64,000 nt of DNA from Terriglobia bacterium (lineage in GTDB: Bacteria; Acidobacteriota; Terriglobia; Terriglobales; Acidobacteriaceae). The stretch spans positions 62,001 through 126,000 of the forward strand of contig JAIQGK010000008.1 of NCBI GenBank assembly GCA_020072645.1. Reading direction: 5' to 3'. The notes under the pieces are model-generated. The model was not told the origin of the DNA. It worked only from the letters and a program-made list of their open reading frames with translations, and made no database searches. Numbering within the stretch: position 1 is the first letter of the stretch; every line of letters starts with the position of its first letter. The translations under genes and the position numbers were made by a program. Of the stretch, positions 2,381 through 59,456 are shown in pieces.

Positions 2381-2583
2381 TTAACCACAAAGGACACGAA
2401 GGAACACAAAGGAGATCTGGTGATCTGGCGATCGCCGTGATCGGAAAACGTGTCTATCGCAGCGGCAGGCTACGGAACACAAAGGTGAATATGAAACAGG
2501 GCGGCAACCGGAGAGCTACCGGCCCTGCTTCATCCAGCAGAATCGCTTCTGCTGAAATTTGCCTTCGTGTCCTGTGTGGTTAA
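2381..2583. repeat. about 200-bp element bounded by 22-bp inverted repeats
   Basis: The left arm at 2381-2402 (begins TTAACCACAAAGG) and the reverse complement of the right arm at 2562-2583 (begins TTAACCACACAGG) agree at 21 of 22 positions. The interior (2403-2561) has no credible gene. The right arm overlaps the stop codon (2580-2582) of the thioredoxin-domain gene. Terminal inverted repeats and lack of coding capacity resemble a MITE-like or REP-like element. I cannot see target-site duplications clearly. Confidence 0.6.
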
Positions 2584-4457
2584 GGTTGTTTGATCAGTCC
2601 GTCCAGGATCTTCTCCGCTTGCTGGTGCAGGTCGGGCGGCGCGCCGTACATCACGCTGGCGGTCTTGCCGGATCTATCAAACAAGAACATGGTTGGGACA
2701 GCGGTGATATCGCCAAAGGCCTGGGCTGTGGCGGCGTCGGTGATGGCCCAATGCAGGTCGGGACTGAGCGCATTCACGGTTTCCCGGACTTTGTCTTCCG
2801 GCGATTCAACCGCGAACGCCAGAATGGCCACGTCATCGCCGTATTTCTTTTTCAGGTCACCCAGCCATTCCAGCGTTGAGCGGCAGGGCGGGCACCACGT
2901 GGCCCAGAATTCCACGAGCACAACGCGTCCGGCGGCATCTTCAGCGGTGAGCGGCTTGCCACCAAGATCAGTCAGCGTGAATTTGGGCAGCGAAGCGATA
3001 GCGGCCATGCTTGTGCTGGTTCCCGCACGCTCGCGGCTAACGACGTCTTTTTTACCCGCGAGAATCAGATCAATCATCCGGGTCAGGTCATGCTTGAATT
3101 TTGCCTGGTTGTCCGCGTTGCGCCACGGTGCGTAACGACCTGTACCTTCTTTTTCGCCGAAGTAGCCGAAGTCGCGCGGCGCGGCGATCAGGACATCATC
3201 CAAAAATATTGCGGGATAGCCTTTTACGCCGAAGCGGTCGGCCAGTTTGGAATCGCCAAAGTTTTCGCTGACGAACGTGACTTTTCCGGCGTACTTTGCC
3301 GCAACTTCCTGGGCCAGCAAACTTGCTGGGTCGGAGATGTTTCAAGTGTAAGGCCAGCGGACCAGAGTGAGCGTGGCGGTCCTGGCCGCTCGTTGTTGCA
3401 GTGGCGCTGCCGGCTTGAGCGCAGCGTAATACGCGGGCAACACCTGCTGCAGGATGACCTGAACGGCTCGCCATTCGTCCGGGGACGGCGCAGCGCTGTC
3501 CGGTTTGTTGAGCCATCCCTGGGCACGCTCCAGAAATGCCTGGGCGATTGAGTCATCGCGCTTCGATGCCGAGACTTTCTTCAGCTCTTCCGCCACCTGA
3601 CTGCGTAGCGCAGACTGTTTGGCATCGTCAGGGACAACAGGGTCGAGCATGCCGAAATTCCGCACAGCTTCCAGATATTGATAGAGCGCGCCAGCGTATG
3701 CCTTGGATGAATCAAGTTCCCGTGCGAACTTAAGCGTGGCGTTGAGGTTGATAAAGCGCGGATGCATATCAATGGAGCGCGGCGGCTGGAAAGCGGCGTT
3801 TGTTTTTTCCTGAAGCGCTTCCAACTCAGGCAGCACCGAACGCAGTGGAAACGGGGAGCCTTTCCGTGCAATGCTCAGGCCATAGAGAAAAGCGGCGTAC
3901 GCCGCTTCTCCTTTCGCCTCACCCATATACGCCAGGCCGTCTTGCGGCTTGGTGGACGTGGCAAAGCCGCGACTGCCTTCCAGCAAAGGAATCGTGCGGC
4001 CTTGCGCGGATTCTGAGAGTGCGCGGACCGCCGCCGGGAACCGGTTCCAATTACGCTGCCGCGCTTGTTTATCCAGCGCAGCATATTCCAGGCTGGCTTT
4101 GCCCCATTCGGCTTCAAAGGCGGGCAAGTTGTCCTTGACGGCGTCAGCTTTGGCTTCAATTGTTCTTACGGCCTGAAAATAGTCTTCCGCCTGCCCCAGA
4201 TTTTCCAAGCTCAGGTACAAGTGGCCGGCAGAGCGTGCGGAATCAGCTTCCTGGAGGCGCTGCTCAATCCTTTTGCCAAGGTCGGCGAGATCAGGGCTTT
4301 GAATGGGCCGCGCTTTCAACGATTGCTGCAGGCGCTCAATTTCACCTTTGGTCTGCGCAGCAGCGTCCTGCGCATACGCTTTGATATTCGCGATGAAAAG
4401 AAGGCCGGCGAAAGACAAGGTGATAAGACGTACCAGCAAACCATGCTTTGTGGTCAC
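2580..4457 (-). CDS. candidate selenoprotein: secreted double-thioredoxin-fold protein with in-frame UGA (Sec372)
   Basis: One frame runs from ATG 4457 to TAA 2580, interrupted only by TGA at 3344-3342; a naive caller would report 3342-4457 and 2580-3320. With Sec at codon 372 the product is 625 residues. Residues 1-30 are a signal peptide (possible cleavage after AYA), about 35-355 is a helical TPR-like region, about 356-470 a thioredoxin fold, and about 485-625 a TlpA-like domain with FWATWCPPC (Cys522, Cys525). In the first fold, LTLVRWPYT-U-NISDP aligns without gaps to the thioredoxin strand ending FWAEWCGPC: the UGA occupies the first Cys and the second is Ser375 (UxxS). GKVTF and the cis-Pro loop GYPA (Pro415) follow in register. 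The downstream part has only a TTG (3320) lying inside this fold, so it is not a free-standing gene. Expected role: periplasmic thiol/selenol redox. Alternative: recent nonsense mutation of a Cys codon. Confidence 0.7.
3301..3344 (-). promoter_or_regulatory. SECIS-like hairpin directly after the UGA
   Basis: On the minus-strand mRNA, UGA (3344-3342) is followed by 12 nt (3341-3330) and a perfect 6-bp stem: CCAGCA (3329-3324), loop AGUU (3323-3320), UGCUGG (3319-3314). Below it UCC (3335-3333) can pair with GGA (3309-3307), and AAC (3341-3339) with GUU (3305-3303). The apical loop starts 18 nt after the UGA and has G at its second position followed by U. This fits the published description of bacterial SECIS elements (loop 16-37 nt from UGA, G among its first two bases). 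Structure was judged by eye, not folded. Confidence 0.6.
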
Positions 4458-4834
4458 GTGATCTCCTGAAGAGGAAGGTGCGCGCAGTCAGAGTATTGAC
4501 TGTGGTCCCTCAAGAACGTGAGCCAGAGTGGGACGGATGTGCATGTGGGTGGGACGAAGAGGATGTCTTTGCCCAATCTCCCCTGCCATTTGCGTCACGT
4601 AGTTCTACCGAGAGCTACCTGGATTGATGTTATGTCGCGGCTGCAACGGCTGGCGATGAAAAATACATTTAAGAGAACGCCTTGAATCTGTATGGCAGGA
4701 ATATTCTCGGGGTCCTTCGACTCGCCCTCCGTCGCACAGCTCCCGCATACTCGCTCAGGATGGCAATTGACGAGAAACGGCGGCAGAGACGTAGGAAGAT
4801 AAACGCCCGAAAATGTGGCTAATTCGGGCTGGGT
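4458..4834. other. intergenic region, no gene seen
   Basis: This 377-bp gap separates the candidate selenoprotein gene (reading away, minus) from the end of the anti-sigma gene. It should hold the selenoprotein promoter near 4460-4560. At about 4711-4762 there is an imperfect palindrome running from TCCTTCGACTCG to ACTCGCTCAGGA, of the type found as dispersed small repeats in many GC-rich genomes. Nothing else was recognised. Confidence 0.5.
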
Positions 4835-6325: not shown

Positions 6326-7336
6326 ATGCGTACCAGAACAACTGTTCTTTTATTGGCTCTTTTTTCCTTTTGCTCGATCGCTGCTTTCGCTGACTCCGCC
6401 GATTTTACCGTGAAGAAAGTGGGAGACGGTATTTATGCCGCTATTGGCACGGACGGCGGAAAAGCCGGCAGCAATGCCGGATTTATTATCGGCAACAATG
6501 GCGTGGTGGTGGTGGATACGTTTGAAGACGTTGCCCCGGCGCGCGATCTGCTGGCAGAAATCCGCAAGATCACGAACCTGCCGATTCGCTTTGTGGTGAA
6601 CACGCATTACCATCTGGACCACACCGGCGGAAATGCCGTATTTGCCCAAGCCGGAGCGACGATCCTTGCGCAGCGCAACTTGCGTGGCTGGCTGCGGACG
6701 GAGAATCTGAAGTTTTTCGGCCCCAATCCAAAGCCGGAGCAAAAAGCCATGGTGGAAGCGCTGGTGCTGCCGGATGAAACTTACAGTGACGCCGTGGATA
6801 TTTATCTGGGCACACGGCAAGTTCAAGTCCGCTACATGCTGGGCCACACCGGCGGCGACTCCGTGGTGACAGTGCCGGACGCCGACGTGGTTTTTGCCGG
6901 CGATCTGGTCTGGCAGAAGCATTTGCCGAACCTGATTGACGCCACCACTAGCGATTGGGTGAAAACGCTGGAGAAGTTGCTGGCCGACCATCCTGCGGGA
7001 ACGTTTGTCTCCGGGCATGGCGATGTTGCCACCGTGGCCGATGTTCGCGATTTCCACGACTATCTAGTCGCGTTGCGTGACGAAGTGGCGAAGGCACAGG
7101 CTGCGGGGAAGACCGACCAGGCGCTCGTCGATGCGGTACTGCCGCAGCTGCAGGAAAAGTATGGGAAAGATTGCCCCGCCGCATCGCCAGATAAGAAGCC
7201 ATCAGTTCCTACAGCAACATGCTGGGGATTCTTTGGGCCGTTCTCCAAACGCAACATTATGCAGACTGCGGCAGAACTTGCAGGGACGAAAAAAGTGCCG
7301 CAACCGGCGGCAGATAACTCGGCGCCAGCAAAATAA
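6326..7336 (+). CDS. secreted metallo-beta-lactamase-fold hydrolase
   Basis: The 336-residue protein starts with a signal peptide (MRTRTTVLLLALFSFCSIAAFA). The mature part is a metallo-beta-lactamase fold with the dizinc motif NTHYHLDHTGG (His94, His96, Asp98, His99), a third ligand in MLGHTGGD and a fourth in SGHGDVATVAD. It is therefore a periplasmic Zn hydrolase of the glyoxalase-II/SoxH-like class rather than a proven beta-lactamase; substrate unknown. It is followed after 2 bp by a prolyl oligopeptidase, so the two are probably co-transcribed and may both act on peptides or small metabolites in the periplasm. Confidence 0.88.
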   Translation: MRTRTTVLLLALFSFCSIAAFADSADFTVKKVGDGIYAAIGTDGGKAGSNAGFIIGNNGVVVVDTFEDVAPARDLLAEIRKITNLPIRFVVNTHYHLDHTGGNAVFAQAGATILAQRNLRGWLRTENLKFFGPNPKPEQKAMVEALVLPDETYSDAVDIYLGTRQVQVRYMLGHTGGDSVVTVPDADVVFAGDLVWQKHLPNLIDATTSDWVKTLEKLLADHPAGTFVSGHGDVATVADVRDFHDYLVALRDEVAKAQAAGKTDQALVDAVLPQLQEKYGKDCPAASPDKKPSVPTATCWGFFGPFSKRNIMQTAAELAGTKKVPQPAADNSAPAK

Positions 7337-56111: not shown

Positions 56112-57119
56112 CTAGCGATTCCTGTCGGCAACCTGCCGGCGCAAACCTTCGGTACCCTGATGTTGTGATTGTGTCTCCCGACGGGTCGCGCTTTCTTCCT
56201 GAAGGAATTTGAGAATCGCCATAACGTCTCCGTCGGCGAGCCTGAGGTTAGGCATGCGTACCTGCTTGTACTGCCTGAATAGAGCCAGAGCAGTAGGGTC
56301 CTTTTCGGCAATTACTTTGTCGGGCTCCTGAATAAAGCGCTTCAGCCAGTCACGGTTTCGTGCGGTTGTCACTCCAAGAAGATCGGGGCCAATCTTGACG
56401 CCATGTCCAACCGTATGGCAGGCGGCGCAATGGGTGGAGAAGACGTACTGGCCTGGATTCAGCTTGACGGGCTTTAGATCAGCGGAAGTTGTCTGCTTCT
56501 GGGTAGCGGAGTATTTCCAGTTGTTCAGCCAGTCACCAATCAGCGTGGCCAGGAAGCGCGGGTTGTCAGTGGCGCCATTTCGCATCCATTGCCCTGTGGG
56601 TTCGCTGCCGATCAATACGCTAGGGCTATGGCCATCACGATCATTCGGATCAGGATCGGTGTAGAGCCCGATTTTCTTGCTCAGCTGGTCAATATCCTCT
56701 TTTTTCCCCGTCAGGAACAGCCAGCCCGGGCCGGCGTGATACTTTTCCGCGTACTCTCTGAGTACCGCGGGAGTATCATGCTGCGGATCAATGCTTATGG
56801 AGTAGAAAAAAATCTGCTTGCCCACAGCATCGCCAAGCAATTTTTGCACCTGCGCCAGCCTGGCGGTCTCCAGCGGGCATGAGTCCACGCAGTGGGTATA
56901 AATAAGGTCGATGACTACGATCTTTCCGCGAACAAGATCATCATAGAACTTCACCTTCTTGCCATCCTGAGTGACCAGTTCGGTATTGGGGAAGTAATTG
57001 GCTCCCCAATGGGCGTTGTCGAACGCTTTTGCCGCGGGCGAGCGAAAGATGAAAATCAGGGCCGCAAAAGACAAGAGGGCGGCCAAGGAAAGCCCCATAC
57101 GGAATTTTGGGTGAAACAT
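56112..57119 (-). CDS. SCO1/SenC copper chaperone fused to cytochrome c
   Basis: ATG 57119 with AGGAG 7 bp upstream gives 335 residues; the frame extends to 57188 without support. After an N-terminal anchor/signal (LSLAALLSFAALIFIF) comes a thioredoxin-fold SCO domain with the copper CxxxC (THCVDSCP, about residue 77-81) and His in DGHSPSVLIG. The C-terminal domain is a monohaem cytochrome c: CAACH (about 237) and axial Met in VRMPNLRL. SCO proteins deliver copper or handle thiols; the fused haem suggests electron transfer. Located between the oxidase and MauG-like genes, it may mature or feed the multicopper oxidase. Confidence 0.92.
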   Translation of the reverse strand: MFHPKFRMGLSLAALLSFAALIFIFRSPAAKAFDNAHWGANYFPNTELVTQDGKKVKFYDDLVRGKIVVIDLIYTHCVDSCPLETARLAQVQKLLGDAVGKQIFFYSISIDPQHDTPAVLREYAEKYHAGPGWLFLTGKKEDIDQLSKKIGLYTDPDPNDRDGHSPSVLIGSEPTGQWMRNGATDNPRFLATLIGDWLNNWKYSATQKQTTSADLKPVKLNPGQYVFSTHCAACHTVGHGVKIGPDLLGVTTARNRDWLKRFIQEPDKVIAEKDPTALALFRQYKQVRMPNLRLADGDVMAILKFLQEESATRRETQSQHQGTEGLRRQVADRNR

Positions 57120-57143
57120 GAATTGCTCCTGAGTAGGAAAATT

Positions 57144-57182
57144 GCGAGCCGCCCCGCCCTGGTTTGGGCCAGGGCGGCTCGC
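57144..57182 (-). other. strong intercistronic hairpin between oxidase and SCO genes
   Basis: GCGAGCC (57144-57150), a 5-nt bulge, GCCCTGG (57156-57162), loop, CCAGGGC (57169-57175), GGCTCGC (57176-57182): 14 bp of pairing. It lies 22 bp past the oxidase stop and 25 bp before the SCO start, without a T-tract. It could stabilise the oxidase mRNA end or set differential expression within the operon. Confidence 0.6.
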
Positions 57183-57203
57183 TTTCATTCGGCGCCAAGC
57201 GTG

Positions 57204-59456
57204 TTAATACGCTGTTGGCAGCACCTCATCGGGGGTTTGGAAGGTCACGCCGGTCGGATGCGGGACGGGCGTGGGCAGGGGACGCAAGAAAGGCGCTCCG
57301 CTGTCATCCAGTTCCCATCGCAGCAACATGGCGTTGTCCTCGTGCACGGTGTTGTGGCAGTGCTCCATGAACATGCCGCCCCAATCACGGAACTGCATGG
57401 TGAGCGTTACGCTGCCGTTGGGACGCAGCCGATACACGTCTTTGCGTCCCAGTTCCCAGTCGGGTACCGTCACAGGTACGCCCGCCACGGTTCGTGAGAG
57501 GATCTGGCCTTCTTCAAAGTGGATGTGAATCGGGTGATCCCATCCACCACCGCCGTTGACCAGGTGCCACACTTCTCGTGTGCCGAATTTAGGCGCGGCA
57601 GAGAGCCGGCCGAAGTCTGCATTGAGCATTTTGCCGCCGTCGGTCGCAATGCCCCATGGTCCGGTCTGGCCACCCGCGCCAGTGATAAAGGAAGTAATTG
57701 GATCGCTTTGATTCTGCGATGCTCCACTGCCGAACACGAACGTCCGCTCGCGCGCAATCGGGATGTTCGAGAGGTCAGGGTTCGGGATCATCGTGGCAGG
57801 CACCTGGCTCTGGTCAGGCACTGCCGGATCACGCACGATCCGGAATTCCATGAACTTGCCGACGCAGGGATCAGAAGACTTCCCGGCCAGCGCGTCAGCA
57901 AGCGTGCGATCTTGTGCGGGCTTCTTGCCATCCTGATGCTCGCAAAGGTTCACAAACCATACCTTGCTCCCGACGCCGTAGCGCGAGAAATCAATCACAA
58001 TGTCATAGCGCTCGGCAATACCTTGTTCGTCGAGCGCGGTGAGCTGCACAGGATGGGGCAGCAGGTTTCCGTCATTCGCGATCTGCATGAATGTGGAACC
58101 ATCACTCAGGCAGATCTTGAAGAACCGGGAAACGCTGGCGTTCAGGATGCGGAAACGATACTTGCGCCGTTCCACTTCGAAATACGGCTTGTAGGTCAAA
58201 TTGACTGTCATGGCATCGCCCAGAAAGCCATCAAACTGGAAAATATCCATGAACAGCTGTCCATTGCTGTCCCAGGCTTTATCGGCAAGCATGAGGTTGA
58301 CGTCATAGTCCAGGTTCCCCCAGCCTTTGCCGTTCGCAGAGCCGCTGGGCAACCGCAGATTCACACCGTCGTTGACCGTTTCGTCTCCGCGATCAAGGCC
58401 GCTGTAAATATTGAACATGGCCGCGTTGCCTTTGTAGACGTTCTGCGATGTGAAGCTGAACATGTGATCGTGGAACCAGTGCGTTGACATGGTTTCATGC
58501 CAGTCCCCCGGCACCTTGTTCAGTCCACCGTTATCGGCGGGACTGCTGGCCATGGGATCCGTAGCATCAGTGTTCACGCTGAAGATGCCGGCAAGAACGA
58601 TGGGCCAGTGGTAATCATAGAACTGGCCCGGGAAGAAATACGCTCCCGTAAAACCGTCATTCTCTGCTCCGTGGTGGCCGTTGTGCTCGTGAGTGGAAAT
58701 CGTGTTTCGGCCAAAGCCATTGTTTTGGGTTATATCGAACGGCAGGCCGTTGTGGTGACGGAACAAGATGGGCTCGCCGTAACGGCCTTGCACGAGCTTG
58801 GGAGGAATTGTTCCGTTAAACGTCCAAACGGAGTTTGCATCTTGCGTGGGCATCCCAGGATGGAATTTCAGCGGTATATTGGCGGTGGGATTAATGCCGG
58901 AATTAAGATTGGAAGCGACTCCTGGGTTGTAAACCGTATTGGTAGTTGCACCTAACTGCGTCATTTCCGCGGCAACCTGCGGCGGAAATTTGTCGAACTG
59001 CTGATGTGCCCAGATTGCTCCTGGTGGTCGCCCTTCAATGGGACCAGTCAATCCAGTCTGGCCGCCAACGAGTGCGGGATTCAGCGGCTGCTGGGTTTGA
59101 TTGGCTTCCGCAGTCGGCACAGGATTCAGCGAACTTAGCGGGTTGCGTGAAATTACGTCAAAGCGTGGCATGGGCGTGGTGAATGCCTGAACGCCAAAGA
59201 GAGGACTAGCCGGCATGCCCGTGGGAATGCTGCTGGATCCCCCACTCCCGCCGCTGGCGTATGCTACAAAAGGGCTCAGACCACTGATCGGCGCCATCAT
59301 GCCAGCCGTGGTAAATAGTCCCCATTTCATCAGGTCTCGACGCGAGACCTTGCCTTGGGAATAAGCTTTCATGATCTCAGCCCGGTTCTTGCGCGCATTC
59401 TCTGCTTCTCGCACGCGGGCTTTCGATGCATTCTTTGGAAGATAGAAGATACTCAT
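57204..59456 (-). CDS. multicopper oxidase, Tat-exported
   Basis: ATG 59456 gives 750 residues starting MSIFYLPKNASKARVREAEN. A twin-arginine signal VSRRDLMKWGLFTTAG lies about 40 residues in. Copper ligands of a laccase-type enzyme are all present: STHEHNGHHG (type 3/2 HxH), HWFHDHMFS (HxH), HPIHIHFEEG (HxxHxH) and HCHNTVHEDNAMLLRWEL (HCHxxxH with Met, type 1). Domains 1 and 3 are far apart, as in CotA/bilirubin-oxidase-like or larger metal-oxidising enzymes. Substrate could be Mn(II), Cu(I) or phenolics. First gene of the minus-strand cluster with SCO-cytochrome and MauG-like genes; divergent from ECF sigma B. Confidence 0.93.
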   Translation of the reverse strand: MSIFYLPKNASKARVREAENARKNRAEIMKAYSQGKVSRRDLMKWGLFTTAGMMAPISGLSPFVAYASGGSGGSSSIPTGMPASPLFGVQAFTTPMPRFDVISRNPLSSLNPVPTAEANQTQQPLNPALVGGQTGLTGPIEGRPPGAIWAHQQFDKFPPQVAAEMTQLGATTNTVYNPGVASNLNSGINPTANIPLKFHPGMPTQDANSVWTFNGTIPPKLVQGRYGEPILFRHHNGLPFDITQNNGFGRNTISTHEHNGHHGAENDGFTGAYFFPGQFYDYHWPIVLAGIFSVNTDATDPMASSPADNGGLNKVPGDWHETMSTHWFHDHMFSFTSQNVYKGNAAMFNIYSGLDRGDETVNDGVNLRLPSGSANGKGWGNLDYDVNLMLADKAWDSNGQLFMDIFQFDGFLGDAMTVNLTYKPYFEVERRKYRFRILNASVSRFFKICLSDGSTFMQIANDGNLLPHPVQLTALDEQGIAERYDIVIDFSRYGVGSKVWFVNLCEHQDGKKPAQDRTLADALAGKSSDPCVGKFMEFRIVRDPAVPDQSQVPATMIPNPDLSNIPIARERTFVFGSGASQNQSDPITSFITGAGGQTGPWGIATDGGKMLNADFGRLSAAPKFGTREVWHLVNGGGGWDHPIHIHFEEGQILSRTVAGVPVTVPDWELGRKDVYRLRPNGSVTLTMQFRDWGGMFMEHCHNTVHEDNAMLLRWELDDSGAPFLRPLPTPVPHPTGVTFQTPDEVLPTAY

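Follow-up and report, generated by a model that had tools for sequence, protein, structure and literature searches.

A conserved in-frame UGA points to a new bacterial selenoprotein family that joins a thioredoxin-fold domain to a TlpA-like domain

Our analysis of a 64,000-nucleotide stretch of a Terriglobia bacterium genome (hereafter the window) indicates that one of its genes is, near-certainly, a genuine selenoprotein of a new bacterial family; incorporation of selenocysteine (Sec) has not been shown directly. The gene is interrupted by a UGA at codon 372, whose decoding as Sec is close to certain on comparative grounds, with no selenium having been measured. Judged against the catalogues discussed below, it would be the first described example of its family. 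The insertion mechanism is classical; what is new is the way the domains are combined and that cysteine (Cys) forms are apparently missing. Taken as a whole, the explanation developed here, comprising a new Sec family, its mode of insertion and an inferred catalytic scheme, is one that we hold with high confidence, although the catalytic scheme by itself is rather less likely than not.

The frame runs on the minus strand from 4457 to 2580, beginning with GTG at 4457 and ending with a stop at 2582–2580, and is open throughout except for a single TGA at 3344–3342 (codon 372). A preliminary description of the window, made without database searches, had located this frame, its coordinates and the codon number correctly. 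The product contains, in order, a probable signal peptide, a helical domain, a Sec-bearing thioredoxin domain and a TlpA domain with a CPPC motif, laid out as follows.

2580–4457, minus strand: complete selenoprotein gene, 625 residues, Sec at residue 372, GTG start
4463–4467, minus strand: ribosome binding site AGGAG, read directly
4371–4457, minus strand: probable Sec-type signal peptide, residues ~1–29, cleavage near AYA|QD, assigned by eye
3423–4370, minus strand: helical N-terminal domain of unassigned family, residues ~30–345
3048–3380, minus strand: Sec-bearing domain with a predicted thioredoxin fold, WPYT-U-NIS-DPASLL, cis-Pro loop KGYP
3342–3344, minus strand: UGA codon for the inferred selenocysteine 372, TGA in 25 of 25 homologues
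3314–3329, minus strand: putative SECIS hairpin, 6-bp stem, loop AGUU, with G23 at base 3322 and U24 at base 3321
2589–2996, minus strand: TlpA/ResA-like (Redoxin/AhpC-TSA) domain, from Pfam
2883–2894, minus strand: TlpA-domain active site CPPC; C522 and C525 are the protein's sole cysteines

The signal peptide was recognised by eye from a hydrophobic N-terminus and an AxA-like site, both also present in homologues, and two homologues (from genomes G003 and G004) have AAGGAG in the position equivalent to the AGGAG of the window gene. Full-length homologues are 60–80% identical to the window protein on both sides of the TGA. The window holds a second long frame with one TGA break (56883–58487, plus strand, TGA at 57495); it has no Pfam match and probably represents an antisense frame, and we rejected it as a further selenoprotein candidate.

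We found the gene in 25 different genomes, belonging to many families of one phylum. Carriers made up 3 of 9 genomes in the genus sample, 6 of 300 in the family sample, 16 of 396 in the phylum sample and 8 of 399 in the class sample, in addition to a contig (L043) with the same sequence as genome G716. TGA stands at the identical codon in every one of the 25 homologues, never replaced by another residue; one of them (G899) ends at a contig end just past the hairpin. The surrounding motif is [TV]TLVRWP[YF]T-U-xxSDPA[SG]LL, with UxxS in 23 genes and UxxC, as U-HLC-DPASLL, in the remaining two (L112 and L113, genomes G666 and G673, family f94). The preliminary description had proposed inspecting codon 372 in homologues, which turned out to be UGA in all, and had named resequencing to TGC or TGT as an outcome that would refute it; a sequencing error is excluded by a codon common to 25 genomes.

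Over the Sec domain, the most distant members are still ~41–50% identical to the window protein. We surveyed the phylum (396 genomes) and the class (399 genomes) using a profile of the Sec domain, with a threshold of E ≤ 1e-4 and nine candidates scored per genome, and found no Cys version, an absence established for the sampled genomes of these two groups only; SelB/SECIS-dependent selenoproteins usually, though not necessarily, have Cys counterparts. The weakest full match had E ~4e-57, below which lay a single contig-end fragment, and no match lacked the UGA. For the closest pair, the window gene and its G003 homologue, dN downstream of the UGA is 0.026–0.056 (~0.03–0.06) and dS is ~1.4–1.5; the part beyond the UGA is thus a translated and strongly constrained protein. 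While a lone TGA in an open frame resembles a fresh nonsense mutation, the idea that a TGC, TGT or TGG was spoiled in one genome, by mutation, pseudogene formation or sequencing error, is already refuted by the identical UGA of 25 independent genomes, which span many families, and by strong purifying selection on both sides of it, and retains virtually no credibility. In a tree of the Sec-thioredoxin-TlpA region, one sequence from another class (G424, family f49) is nested in a clade of the window's class, a placement that suggests horizontal transfer of the gene.

The host genome (6.44 Mb, 99% complete) encodes a tRNA-Sec with anticodon UCA (RF01852, 73.9 bits against a cut-off of 47), a SelA scoring 438 bits, and both SelB and SelD; all four of selA, selB, selC and selD, for which the preliminary description had advised a genome check, are therefore present. 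The selD gene itself (G000:C12:254514-255335) has an in-frame UGA (locus L118, TGA 1531–1533) in the context KAAG-U-ASKLSP, the known UxxK selenoprotein form, so that selenophosphate synthetase is a selenoprotein here too. At least one further gene of the host is therefore very probably read with Sec at a UGA. SelB was detected in 25 of 25 carriers of the gene and, within the phylum sample, in 16 of 16 carriers versus 286 of 396 genomes overall (hypergeometric p = 0.005). Among genus-mates without the gene, SelB is still found in five of six, which marks the gene as an accessory of the Sec trait and not its cause. Given those 286 genomes, the trait is common in the phylum, yet it is missing from the members of g35, a genus of the window's own family, that were sampled.

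Downstream of the UGA, the window sequence folds into the hairpin CCAGCA-AGUU-UGCUGG, which starts 12 nt past the UGA and has its loop at 18 nt. This apical element, already recognised in the preliminary description, is kept in 25 of 25 homologues with the consensus CC[AG]GCA-[AG]GU[UC]-UGCUGG. Two lower helices reported alongside it form when the window sequence is folded, yet the family consensus lacks them and conserves the 6-bp apical stem alone. An Rfam search of the window gave no match. In a single sequence such a hairpin is weak evidence: among the window's 2163 TGA triplets, 17% precede a hairpin of at least 6 bp under loose loop and spacing rules, and 3.1% do so when a 4-nt loop is required. 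Its conservation, along with that of the UGA, in 25 of 25 homologues raises it above chance.

Conservation of the element is also apparent at the RNA level. The alanine codon in the hairpin is GCA in 21 of 21 sequences (GCA provides 10% of Ala codons in these genes), and the serine, where present, is AGT in 16 of 16 (9% of Ser codons); the leucine after it is encoded by TTG (9%) in every sequence with AGT before it, and by CTG in those with GGT. Across 21 sequences, synonymous change is 0.17–0.21 in 5-codon windows on the hairpin versus 0.55–0.92 further downstream. The consensus stem has six pairs, and with an added A22–U25 or G22–C25 pair, 98.6% of cells are paired. Bases 22 and 25 covary from A-U to G-C in five sequences, which form one clade, so we count the change as a single event.

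The published bSECIS model calls for an upper stem of 4–16 bp, a loop of 3–9 nt, a spacing of 16–37 nt and a minimum free energy of at most −7.5 kcal/mol, with a G in the first two loop bases and the loop pattern N1-G-[GU]-N-N2, in which N1 and N2 pair (PMC13188914). All of these are met, with 6 bp, a 4-nt loop (A-G-U-U or G-G-U-C), 18 nt and −12.6 kcal/mol over 45 nt. In E. coli fdhF, G23 and U24 are named as SelB contact or loop bases, and U17 also has a role (PMC8659212). The family resembles fdhF in its invariant G23–U24, which lies equally far from the UGA, and differs from it in having a C17–G30 pair, no bulged U17 and mostly an AGUU loop. The apical GCA-GGUC-UGC of fdhF recurs exactly in the five family members with a GGUC loop. 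The UGA could instead be suppressed as an ordinary amino acid such as Trp, since ordinary read-through would likewise preserve the frame. We regard this as extremely improbable, given SelB in all carriers, a hairpin that fits the SECIS model with G23–U24 invariant, and the position of the UGA at the active site of a thioredoxin fold.

The helical N-terminal domain has no Pfam family above cut-off, and its AlphaFold model, built from a two-row alignment, is all-helical but weak (pTM 0.34). Five distant relatives (G307, G306, G560, G346 and G645) encode this domain on its own, in a gene immediately preceding a short Sec-thioredoxin-TlpA gene. Wherever the start of a short gene is clear, it has a signal peptide of its own; in the three clearest (L064, L067 and L068), the signal peptide is followed by a UGA 41–54 codons past the start. 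Upstream of the split Sec-thioredoxin gene in G306 (L073/L088), the helical domain is joined to a protein of the metallo-beta-lactamase fold NTHWHGDHHHGN, which may hint at the pathway. The window also encodes an exported metallo-beta-lactamase-fold protein (6326–7336, plus strand) VNTHYHLDHTGGN, 2 kb upstream on the other strand, which was not observed as a conserved neighbour. Synteny around the gene (argR-argC-argB, an anti-sigma gene and a prolyl oligopeptidase) is confined to the genus, and the neighbourhood comparison revealed no functional partner gene conserved across families.

That distant relatives carry two genes, and that a TTG lies eight codons past the UGA, might favour a true stop at the UGA followed by re-initiation of a separate downstream gene at an internal TTG or ATG. 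The natural split, however, falls elsewhere, before the Sec domain, as the three short genes with a signal peptide ahead of the UGA illustrate. A product begun at the TTG would have neither signal peptide nor active site and would lack the first strand, and the residues before the UGA (TLVRWPYT) are conserved as much as those after it. The preliminary description had argued against a separate gene from a downstream part that offers only one TTG; in fact, a TTG at L419 and ATG codons at M461 and M485 are also in frame after the UGA. All of them lie within or past the thioredoxin domain, so the argument itself stands, and a downstream gene of its own remains very improbable.

We modelled the domains with AlphaFold2 from a two-row alignment of the window and L043 sequences, which is therefore shallow. 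The Sec domain model (pLDDT 70.9, pTM 0.71, below 50 in the active-site loop) contains a strand at 10–16, a helix at 26–36, a strand at 42–48, a helix at 53–57, strands at 65–68 and 71–74 and a helix at 97–115, and Sec lies in the poorly resolved loop between the first strand and the first helix. A Foldseek search with this model found E. coli thioredoxin (probability 1.00, E 0.005). VIA-align gave Z 8.0 for the best thioredoxin match (rmsd 2.7, 83 residues aligned), while SelW-like proteins and further thioredoxins scored 6–7; such middling Z values may be fortuitous. Sequence-level matches to thioredoxin-fold proteins are weak (best E 0.005), and the Pfam scan gave no PF00085 match over the Sec domain. 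Since the match list nevertheless consists almost entirely of thioredoxin-fold proteins and sequence matches point the same way, the domain is predicted to have a thioredoxin fold, with a beta-alpha-beta-alpha-beta-beta-alpha core and a cis-Pro loop. The model, the motif and the Pfam matches thereby bear out what had been read from the window: a thioredoxin fold with a UxxS motif, fused to a TlpA-like domain that has CPPC.

Which thioredoxin Cys the Sec replaces is less clear. The preliminary description placed it on the first, attacking Cys of CxxC; this is favoured and likely to be correct, but unproved, as profile alignments choose either Cys. The Sec follows the conserved Trp by 4 residues and precedes the cis-Pro by 43; the spacings of the first Cys in E. 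coli thioredoxin are 4 and 44. We prefer the first-Cys register because these spacings match without a large gap and because two members have UxxC (UHLC). Alternatively, Sec could occupy the second, resolving position, with W-P-Y-T-U equivalent to W-C-x-P-C and Pro replacing the attacking Cys. Two of three PDB profile alignments (HMMER alignments to 3tco and 4xhm) select this register, while 7c3f selects the first Cys; an hhalign profile-profile comparison against a two-row thioredoxin alignment also chose the second Cys but was too weak to use. The second-Cys register requires a 3-residue gap, while the first keeps the thioredoxin spacings and agrees with the two UHLC members; we judge the second unlikely, though not negligible. 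In the one family with UHLC, a resolving Cys has been gained or retained.

At the C-terminus, residues 489–608 match PF08534 (54.3 bits), PF00578 (44.8 bits) and PF00085, all above cut-off, and contain WCxxC, which satisfies our criterion for a TlpA/ResA-like domain. Searches of plasmids and viral contigs gave matches to the TlpA domain only, or none. With the Sec at the first-Cys position, we tentatively propose the following scheme, whose function is inferred and for which there are no activity data. The first step is near-certain on comparative grounds: the SECIS hairpin guides SelB, with its Sec-tRNA-Sec, to the UGA of codon 372. The product would then be exported, with Sec at the inferred catalytic position of the thioredoxin-fold domain and Ser, rarely Cys, three residues on. 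There it may serve as an exposed redox centre with a single selenol and attack an oxidised substrate in the periplasm, be it a disulfide, a sulfenic acid or a peroxide. The resulting selenenylsulfide or selenenic acid would be reduced by the fused TlpA domain through its CPPC, the only cysteines available in the protein, and the TlpA domain is inferred to draw electrons from the membrane by a CcdA/DsbD-type route. The helical domain, again by inference, probably presents the substrate or forms a complex.

Peroxidase and disulfide-reductase activity are indistinguishable from sequence. A lone Sec without a resolving Cys in its domain is typical of peroxidatic selenols, and the TlpA domain matches Redoxin and AhpC-TSA models; the protein might thus be a periplasmic peroxidase of the glutathione-peroxidase or peroxiredoxin-like kind, with TlpA as its reductant, and not a thiol-disulfide reductase. 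Against this, the Sec domain matches no peroxiredoxin or glutathione peroxidase model in Pfam or NCBIfam, and its best fold matches are thioredoxins. Such a peroxidase is, in our assessment, on the unlikely side but a serious contender.

We found no paper linking the gene to a known selenoprotein. No selenoprotein model of NCBIfam release 20.0 came near its cut-off for the window protein, in a scan that covered most families (those with models) of Haft and Tolstoy 2025, reportedly a main source of new selenoprotein families. The families of that study are listed in a 2026 review, whose inventory of 119 prokaryotic selenoprotein families contains no identifiable match, some entries being broad labels for which overlap is not wholly excluded (PMC13188914). 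Both sources support the guess, made from the window alone, that the combination was undescribed. Thioredoxin- and TlpA-type entries of the inventory have UxxC, CxU, UxC or UGC motifs, and UxxS is listed there for rhodanese form 1, arsenate reductase and peroxiredoxin-like cd02970 (PMC13188914).

The closest known systems each share only part of the design. Like selenocysteine thioredoxin (PF00085, UxxC), the family has a predicted thioredoxin fold, a Sec probably at the first Cys and a cis-Pro loop; unlike it, the family has Ser as the second residue in 23 of 25 members, no PF00085 match over the Sec domain and no Cys form found, and is predicted to be exported and fused to TlpA and helical domains, so the criteria of the Thioredoxin family proper (CxxC/UxxC) are not met. 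TlpA/ResA-type domains also occur in PF13098 thiol:disulfide interchange, PF00578 Prx-like, PF08534 Redoxin and NF041054 WAxxUGC TlpA selenoproteins; whereas the motifs listed for them put Sec in place of a Cys within the TlpA-type domain, here TlpA keeps its CPPC and Sec resides in a second thioredoxin domain. The window protein fails the NF041054 (WAxxUGC ResA-like) criterion, with 27.5 bits against a cut-off of 300 over the TlpA part only. The three UxxS entries share that motif but differ in fold or family, and no corresponding Pfam or NCBIfam match was obtained. ResA, TlpA and DsbE oxidoreductases share the C-terminal domain with WCPPC; the likeness covers the last 135 residues alone, and the ResA model gives 64 bits against a cut-off of 170.

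We infer that current annotation probably splits such genes into a truncated hypothetical protein and a TlpA fragment. Pipelines that require Cys homologues miss Sec-only families (PMC12013277). It is conceivable, if somewhat short of probable, that the family is obligately Sec-only, a two-domain exported enzyme that needs a lone selenol recycled in-chain by its TlpA domain. If so, a Sec-only family without a Cys counterpart would be missed by searches for Cys/Sec pairs. That a family found here only with Sec persists patchily in one phylum, strongly selected, hints that selenoproteome surveys have a blind spot. The family also offers a test case for selenium chemistry beyond that of sulfur.
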